NCBI GenBank assembly: GCA_017475935.1
Contig: JAFVEP010000013.1
Location: 1 to 40,140 of the forward strand
Reading direction: 5' to 3'
DNA length: 40,140 nt
From: Alphaproteobacteria bacterium
Lineage (GTDB): Bacteria; Pseudomonadota; Alphaproteobacteria; RF32; CAG-239
Under the pieces are notes generated by a model, which ran no database searches, was not told where the DNA came from, and worked only from the letters and a program-made list of their open reading frames with translations. A program made the position numbers and the translations under genes. Positions within the stretch are counted from its first letter, which is position 1, and each line of letters begins with the position of its first letter. Below are positions 1 through 2,454 of this stretch, piece by piece.

Positions 1-1429
1 ATGTCTTACCATCAGTATCCATCAACAAGCAGGAAGAAACGCCGATAACCAAATTATCTTGTTTATCATTCAACAAAGAATCAACTTTACTTGTTTTATA
101 TGCTGTTCCGGTATTTGTACCATCATTGAAGGCAATAGTATCTGCACCAGAAGCATCAATTGCCGCAGCGATTGCCGTACTAACTTTAGTATCAATCGTA
201 CCGCCATTTTTGGTAATATCCGTAAACTGATCTTGAATGTTTGAGGTAACACCATCAACATAATTCAATTCCGTCGTTGATGCTGTTAAGCCGTCAAGAA
301 CATTCAACTCATCGGTTGAAGCAGTCATGCCTTTTAACACATTTAATTCAGCAATTGACGCTGTCAAGCCGGTTAATTTGGTTGCTTCATCAGCCTTGTC
401 GGCATGTGTTGCGTTATCAACTTTAACAGCAGCAACGGCTTCATCCCAGTCAGATACTTTATTGTGTGTGATTGTACTGTCTGTTGTCAAAACATCTTTA
501 TTGTTAACTTTCAGTGACTTTGCATTAATATCTGTCGAAGCGTCTTGTAATTTAGCGGTTGTTGTATAATCAGCAAACTTCGCATCAACATTGTCAACTT
601 CCGTCTTTGTTGCATAAGTTGTTCCAAGACCATCAATTGCATTTTTATATGCATCTGTGAAGTCGTTCGTTGAAAGAACTTTACTACCGTCTTTTTGAAC
701 ATAGCCATTAAGATCAGTCGATTTAACATAGTTAGATTCAATAGCCGTAACTCTACCATCTAATGCCGTATCATCATAGTTATGTAATCCGGCCAGCTTT
801 GTCTTCTCTGCCGATGTGAAATTCTCATCAGACAACTGTTTACTACCATCCTTTTGAACATAGTTCGACAGTGTTGTGCTCAGACCATCTAACTGGTTTT
901 TGTAATCATTCGTAAAGTCGTTTGTTGACAACTGTTTAACGCCGTCTTTTACAACATAGTTCGACAATGTTGTGCTCATACCATCTAACTGGTTTTTGTA
1001 TGCATTTGTGAAGTCGTTTGTTGATAATTGTTTAACGCCGTCTTTTTCAACATAGTTCGACAGTGTTGTGCTCAGACCATCTAACTGGTTTTTGTAATCA
1101 TTTGTAAAGTCGTTTGTTGATAATTGTTTAACGCCGTCTTTTACAACATAGTTCGACAAAGCTGCTGAAATCTTGTTGTCAATCGTACCGCCATCTTTGG
1201 TAATATCCGTAACCGATCCCTTCGTCGCATAGTTTGCTCCAATGATACCCAAAGCCGTGGAAACATCCGTCTTTGTTGCAAATGTATTATCTGCACCACC
1301 TTTCGTATATACTTCTACTTCGTTACTGGAAGTATCCGTAACCGTAGCGGTATCTGCTGCATGCGCAGAAGTCGCCGAAACCATAGCGCTAAGCGCTGTT
1401 CCGGCGAGTAATAAATACTTTTTATTCAT
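1..1429 (-). CDS. Exported repeat protein with phage-tail-fibre-like modules (3' end outside window)
   Basis: A continuous open frame of 476 codons runs from ATG at 1429 off the left edge. An AAGGAGG ribosome site lies at 1434-1440. The N-terminus is a clear Sec signal peptide (MNKKYLLLAGTALSAMVSA, cleavage probably after AHA near residue 24). Residues of about 89-220 are tandem 32-residue units of the type NYVxKDGVKQLSTNDF...YKNQLDGL, and further copies are more diverged (KLAGLHNYDDTAL). Further on comes a run of T-A-S-x-x-E-L-N-x-L-x-G-x units ending DGVTSNIQDQF. Both patterns are common in phage tail fibres and similar shaft proteins. No other phage gene is nearby and the signal peptide argues for a cell-surface or secreted fibre of the host. 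The C-terminal anchor or passenger is not visible. The exact function is unknown. Confidence 0.85.
   Translation of the reverse strand, partial: MNKKYLLLAGTALSAMVSATSAHAADTATVTDTSSNEVEVYTKGGADNTFATKTDVSTALGIIGANYATKGSVTDITKDGGTIDNKISAALSNYVVKDGVKQLSTNDFTNDYKNQLDGLSTTLSNYVEKDGVKQLSTNDFTNAYKNQLDGMSTTLSNYVVKDGVKQLSTNDFTNDYKNQLDGLSTTLSNYVQKDGSKQLSDENFTSAEKTKLAGLHNYDDTALDGRVTAIESNYVKSTDLNGYVQKDGSKVLSTNDFTDAYKNAIDGLGTTYATKTEVDNVDAKFADYTTTAKLQDASTDINAKSLKVNNKDVLTTDSTITHNKVSDWDEAVAAVKVDNATHADKADEATKLTGLTASIAELNVLKGMTASTDELNVLDGLTASTTELNYVDGVTSNIQDQFTDITKNGGTIDTKVSTAIAAAIDASGADTIAFNDGTNTGTAYKTSKVDSLLNDKQDNLVIGVSSCLLMDTDGKT
848..1164 (-). repeat. Tandem 96-bp (32-codon) repeat inside the exported fibre gene
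   Basis: Near-identical blocks recur about every 96 bases, recognisable by the forward word acatagttcgaca at about 1146, 1050, 954 and 861. The three units nearest the start codon differ by only a few bases; the next is more diverged. The near identity suggests recent duplication or homogenisation, so copy number may vary between strains or be collapsed in short-read assembly. Confidence 0.85.
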
Positions 1430-1701: not shown

Positions 1702-2454
1702 TTATCGAGCTGGGGATAAAATGTTTTTTATTCGATTATCCGCAGCATAGTCATAAGCCGTTTTTCCCTCATAATCACTGATTTCCGAATCAGCACCGGC
1801 ATTGATGAGCAGGCTGATCACATCCGGATCTTCGTTCAACGCCGCCGCATACATCAAAGCAGTACGACCGCCATGATCCTGCTCATTAAGATCGGCACCT
1901 TACTTAATAATCATTTTCAACACCTTGGCCGAAACATCCGTGCGGCACACGTTCATCAATAAAGTGCGCCCCTTGCTGTCACGCGCATTGATATCGTGCT
2001 GAACATTTTCATAACGTCCCGATGATTGCTGACCGGCGTTCACACCAAGCGTAGATGCCAACATTTGCGCCATTTGCACCAAATCCGCATTGTTTTCACC
2101 ACTGGCGCCGTTGGCCAGCATATCAGCCATAGTCGCTAACCCCGGAGACATTGTCGGCTTGTTTGTTTGAGAGGCGGACGCCGTGTTGCCCTGACCGCTT
2201 ACCGCATTAATCCCTTTGTTCACAACCGCTGTCATCAATGCCTTTTTCATATCATCAGACCCCGAACCGAGCAAATTAGCCAACCATGTCTTCGGCTCAT
2301 CATCCTGCGCCTCAGCCGCCCCGCCTGTGATACGCTCCATCGCATAACTCACCGCTTTTTCAGCCAATACCTGCCGATGTGAATATACATAATACGAACC
2401 GCCGGCCAAAAGCAAAATCAGCACGGCTAACGAAATCAAAAAATGCTTGAACAT
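1702..2454 (-). pseudogene. Ankyrin-repeat membrane-anchored protein, interrupted by an in-frame TAA
   Basis: From ATG at 2454 (purine-rich GAGGGGAG just upstream) the frame encodes an N-terminal membrane anchor or signal (about residues 5-24), an Ala/Asn/Gln-rich middle, then ankyrin repeats (DINARDSKGRTLLMNVC..., residues about 155-184). TAA at 1900-1902 stops it after KMIIK. The same frame then continues without a shift as GADLNEQDHGGRTALMYAAA through two more ankyrin units and ends at TAA 1702-1704. The total is 250 codons with the stop at codon 185. The reading frame on both sides makes one point mutation (for example GAA or AAA to TAA) the simplest cause. The short product of 184 residues could still be made. 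Ankyrin proteins usually mediate protein binding; the partner here is unknown. Confidence 0.75.

Follow-up and report, generated by a model that had tools for sequence, protein, structure and literature searches.

An exported fibre gene with phage tail-fibre modules, probably the passenger of a trimeric autotransporter adhesin

The window, a stretch of 40,140 nucleotides (contig C42 of the genome G000), has its position 1 at a contig edge, and the gene cut by this edge raises the question of what kind of fibre it encodes. The gene comes from a gut-type bacterium and appears to specify an exported surface fibre made partly of phage tail-fibre repeats. An earlier note had suggested that it is a domesticated phage fibre serving as an adhesin. 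We conclude that it is probably the passenger of a trimeric autotransporter adhesin (TAA, type Vc) with modules of phage type in its stalk. The signal peptide, the modules and the company that the modules keep in two sister species were directly established.

The genome is assembled into 80 contigs (1.37 Mb, 95.8% complete). Only the 5′ part of the gene, 476 codons on the minus strand, lies on the contig, and it is free of stop codons up to the edge at base 2 (Table 1). The start was placed at ATG 1429, which is preceded by a perfect AGGAGG; a second candidate start, the in-frame ATG at 1501, has no AGGAGG-like site. A promoter of its own had been claimed for the gene, and this is weakly supported by a sigma-70-like site with a 10/12 match in a region where about 1.8 such sites are expected by chance, while a terminator-like hairpin does split the gene from the ankyrin-repeat gene upstream. 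The claim that there are no phage neighbours was borne out for the readable side of the gene, where the genes are cellular (RND efflux, ThiF, sulfatase); the contig is cellular.

The ankyrin-repeat gene (window about 1730–2454, minus strand) is itself shortened, with an in-frame TAA at about 1900 that leaves an ORF of 184 aa. In the genus, those of its orthologues whose frames are complete have about 208–268 aa and extend beyond the point of this TAA, and the shortened ORF is either a real truncation or an assembly error. Conserved synteny of the ankyrin gene was considered and rejected: in G015 an ankyrin gene adjoins a YadA-anchored gene in the other orientation, an arrangement that is repeated in no other genome.

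Table 1. Features of the fibre gene and of its upstream region, in window coordinates
Feature	Position	Strand	Basis or remark
Exported fibre gene, 5′ part (476 codons), 3′ end cut	2–1429	−	Open frame to contig edge
TASxxELN block, three copies, ending ELNYVDGVTSNIQDQF	224–375	−	Phage-record matches and phage-only HMM
DITKxGGxIDxKV element, second copy	192–225	−	97% identical DNA to 1179–1212
LSTNDF module 5, separate	617–712	−	Profile/HMM
LSTNDF module 4, diverged, LSDENFT	776–871	−	Profile/HMM
LSTNDF module 3, 96-bp unit	872–967	−	Repeat analysis and profile/HMM
LSTNDF module 2, 96-bp unit	968–1063	−	Repeat analysis and profile/HMM
LSTNDF module 1, 96-bp unit	1064–1159	−	Repeat analysis and profile/HMM
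N-terminal region with FATK/YATK beta-layer-like motifs	1145–1357	−	YadA-anchored proteins as best non-self matches; none in phages
DITKxGGxIDxKV element, first copy	1179–1212	−	Sequence comparison
Sec signal peptide MNKKYLLLAGTALSAMVSATSAHA, 24 aa, AxA site, cleavage before AD	1358–1429	−	Sequence and hydropathy
Ribosome-binding site AGGAGG	1434–1439	−	Sequence
Promoter-like site TTGACT-16-TAAAAT, weak	1509–1536	−	Sequence scan
Terminator-like hairpin with T run	1665–1681	−	Between fibre gene and upstream ankyrin gene

The encoded protein opens with a textbook Sec signal peptide, as judged by eye and by hydropathy, with SAHA immediately before the cleavage site; the earlier claim of Sec export thus agrees with both sequence and hydropathy. 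For the region that follows, the best matches lead to bacterial adhesins: a search of 152 family genomes returned two significant non-self matches, both of them YadA-anchored proteins (G107, E 7e-4; L105 of G007, E 1.2e-3), which as direct matches are weak. A side observation on signal peptides concerns the giant exported proteins of the genus (L111, L127 and others), with open frames of up to about 5,200 aa, which carry the extended signal peptide common to the type Va and type Vc autotransporters of the genus.

Five LSTNDF modules of about 32 residues each were found in the gene, three of them as near-identical 96-bp tandem units. Repeat analysis of 831–1159 gave a period of 96 with 3.4 copies at 90% match (80–85% over longer units), in agreement with the near-identical 96-bp units described before. 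A 32-residue profile recovered the five modules with E values of 1e-17 to 1e-20, the window copies being included in the profile, and an independent HMM built from phage-type relatives only found the same five at 1e-9 to 1e-14. The TASxxELN block was found by an HMM built from phage fibre proteins only (E 1e-9). Among 50,697 phage records it has 126 matches, most of them to minor tail proteins of mycobacteriophages and to fibres of marine phages. Shuffled decoys served as the control, and with the phage-trained HMMs none reached the level of the window modules. The tail-fibre family PHROG 32680 also matched the window protein (5.6e-8). These phage-trained profiles confirm the assignment of both repeat types to phage fibres.

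Relatives of the modules in bacterial and viral contigs resemble phage structural proteins. No TASxxELN module was found on plasmids and no LSTNDF module among solved structures, and searches of the window with Pfam, NCBIfam and PADLOC gave nothing above cut-off, including no match to Pfam YadA_stalk. The LSTNDF module was absent from all 384 other genomes sampled in the class and present in one of 397 other genomes sampled across the phylum; it therefore looks acquired here. Because the 96-bp units are near-identical, variation in stalk length is plausible, with one genome of the species at hand. A single-chain AlphaFold model of the protein had a pLDDT of 34.5 and was discarded as uninformative. 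The DITKxGGxIDxKV element, 34 nt long and placed near both ends of the readable gene, also occurs twice in the YadA-anchored L316 (G018) and nowhere else among the sequences compared; its sharing with L316 is a post hoc observation and amounts to no more than a hint.

The evidence that ties the gene to adhesins comes mainly from the genus, in which 15 of 26 genomes have YadA anchors. Two sister species, G004 (L046) and G005 (L110), have genes that combine a signal peptide with LSTNDF modules, both truncated by contig ends within the module region. The N-terminal domain of the G004 gene matches the complete, YadA-anchored protein L104 (54% identity over 123 aa, E 9e-31) and also L112, in which head and stalk domains of YadA are present (51% over 108 aa). 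That of the G005 gene matches two complete YadA-anchored proteins, L306 (54% over 124 aa) and L305 (76% over 55 aa and 59% over 91 aa). The matches to complete YadA-anchored proteins extend well past the signal peptide in both cases. An orphan fragment of a YadA anchor was seen in G005 as well, at a different contig edge. Homology to anchored TAAs is weak when sought directly from the window (direct BLAST gave E values of only 0.01–0.8) and strong only by way of the two sister genes.

The stalks of anchored proteins were compared with the modules as well. L105, a complete YadA-anchored protein, has a stalk of repeated YATK/YAKS beta-layer motifs that matches phage protein families at 1e-11. 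No LSTNDF module scored above decoy level in the YadA-anchored proteins, and a TASxxELN-like stretch in the anchored L311 had a score that barely exceeds one decoy. Beta-layer motifs of the YxTK type, in an alpha/beta coiled-coil fold, are common to TAA stalks and phage fibres (PMC4786415).

The YadA-anchored genes of the genus have a regular companion. Every one of the 25 with enough readable downstream sequence to be checked (L104, L105, L117–L143) is followed on the same strand, within about 250 bp, by an OmpH/Skp-related ORF whose product has an N-terminal membrane segment. Plain phmmer from one seed matched 24 of these 25 ORFs (seed included; the others at E 1e-7 to 1e-55), and the remaining one was matched through an iterated profile. 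The product is a candidate dedicated TAA chaperone. It recalls SadB, a lipoprotein that assists SadA (PMC3953254), but is another kind of protein. Two OmpH-like genes are present in G000, neither of them next to a fibre gene.

We infer the architecture of the window gene, because its 3′ end lies off the contig and no YadA anchor (PF03895) was found in the G000 assembly (96% complete). In a survey of 1.5 kb at each of the other 159 contig ends of G000, the right end of the window included, no overlap and no shared 15-mers with the window edge were found. One open end was fibre-like: C50 carries a Gp53-like C-terminus next to the terminase gene and further genes of a prophage. This fragment was tried as the missing 3′ end and rejected: it aligns at 37.5% identity with the G008 prophage fibre, over the 3′ half of the latter, the 5′ half of the G000 prophage, with the portal and small fibre proteins, lies on C23 and continues past the start of that contig, and the fragment belongs with that prophage. 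That it is not the continuation of the window gene can be said with fair but not complete certainty; the exclusion is strong and falls short of absolute because a short unassembled gap separates C23 from C50. The resident prophage, split over these two contigs (L169, L304, L324), includes genes for a portal, a terminase and several small fibre proteins; in G001, G008 and G021, related prophages are found on the downstream side of priA. Phage morphogenesis genes beyond the left edge of the window were sought at the other contig ends, and nothing links the C23/C50 prophage to the fibre gene.

These results bear on whether the gene could be a tail-fibre gene that received a Sec signal peptide, its product being secreted without a barrel and acting as an adhesin that is free or tethered in some other way. 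Such an origin would suit the phage-fibre nature of both module types, the lack of a YadA anchor in the assembly and the Gp53-like fibre end at the edge of C50. However, the C50 fragment and the C23 half belong together as a prophage, as set out above, and the N-terminal part of the window protein has no phage relatives. We therefore consider this origin unlikely. In the earlier proposal, export, modules of phage-fibre type and a role as adhesin are supported, whereas domestication of a fibre is probably the wrong frame, because the sister genes with the same LSTNDF modules start with domains of YadA-anchored proteins. It is most improbable that the gene is simply a phage or prophage gene, with the window edge bordering a prophage and a fortuitous signal peptide. 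The module content and the presence of a prophage in G000 would fit, but the gene has a perfect ribosome-binding site and Sec signal and a cellular neighbourhood on its readable side, the phage relatives inspected never start with a signal peptide, and signal peptide and module are seen together independently in G004 and G005.

The missing end might instead encode the PF03797 beta-domain of a classical type Va autotransporter. At least three autotransporters with PF03797 are encoded in G000, and type Va and type Vc proteins of the genus have an extended signal peptide in common. On the other hand, Vc stalks typically have trimer-forming elements such as phage-fibre modules and YATK beta-layer motifs (PMC4786415), none of the Va proteins examined in the genus has either of them, and the one incomplete PF03797 match close to a contig end (C3) is joined to no module, which leaves a Va protein distinctly improbable. 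The TAA reading has points against it as well: the anchor is unseen in G000, none of the contig ends surveyed continues the gene, its signal peptide is short whereas most autotransporters of the genus have an extended one, no OmpH/Skp-like gene of the TAA-linked kind was found next to a fibre gene in G000, and the anchored proteins of the genus have no LSTNDF module above decoy level.

If the gene does encode a TAA passenger, Sec would export the chain and three chains would trimerise. A C-terminal YadA-type barrel, encoded past the contig end and inserted by BAM, would thread the stalk outwards onto the cell surface. This stalk, trimeric and of coiled-coil/beta-layer type, would be built in part from LSTNDF and TASxxELN modules and would keep a binding region at a distance from the cell. 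Anchor, trimerisation, surface display and origin are here inferred, as is adhesion, the default role of trimeric autotransporter adhesins. The modules were probably gained by recombination with phage fibre genes, and the 96-bp units could extend or shorten the stalk. More speculatively, the genus may splice phage fibre modules into exported fibres, in the strongest form as a barrel-less secreted fibre, with phage receptor-recognition parts placed in an adhesin and the 96-bp unit as a length ruler; we regard this as doubtful.

A structural link between phage fibres and adhesins is already known, since earlier structural work described the coiled-coil fold common to trimeric autotransporter stalks and phage fibres. 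The present case adds sequence modules nearly confined to phages within an exported bacterial fibre, and with the two parallel cases in sister species the interest lies in module exchange: direct exchange between phages and adhesins becomes testable against a common physical constraint. Such genes are missed because all three copies are truncated by short-read contig ends within or just after the modules.

Among known systems, the window gene resembles the trimeric autotransporter adhesins of the YadA family (type Vc; PF03895) in its Sec signal, its repetitive, low-complexity putative stalk and its YATK/FATK beta-layer-like motifs, and the N-terminal domains of its sister genes match YadA-anchored proteins of the genus. 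It differs from them in that no anchor is seen, the 3′ end being off the contig, and in that its putative stalk has modules found in phages and matched by no Pfam family. With the alpha/beta coiled coils (PMC4786415) it has YxTK-type beta-layer-like motifs in common, as judged from its sequence. The same modules occur in phage tail fibres, including PHROG 32680, LSTNDF fibres of the Gram-positive type, Prochlorococcus phage P-RSP2 and Mycobacterium phage Che8, whose gp24 is 74% identical to the window protein over 35 aa. Phage fibre proteins, however, have no signal peptide and are encoded among morphogenesis genes, whereas the window gene has a signal peptide, cellular neighbours and an N-terminal region with no phage match at E ≤ 1.
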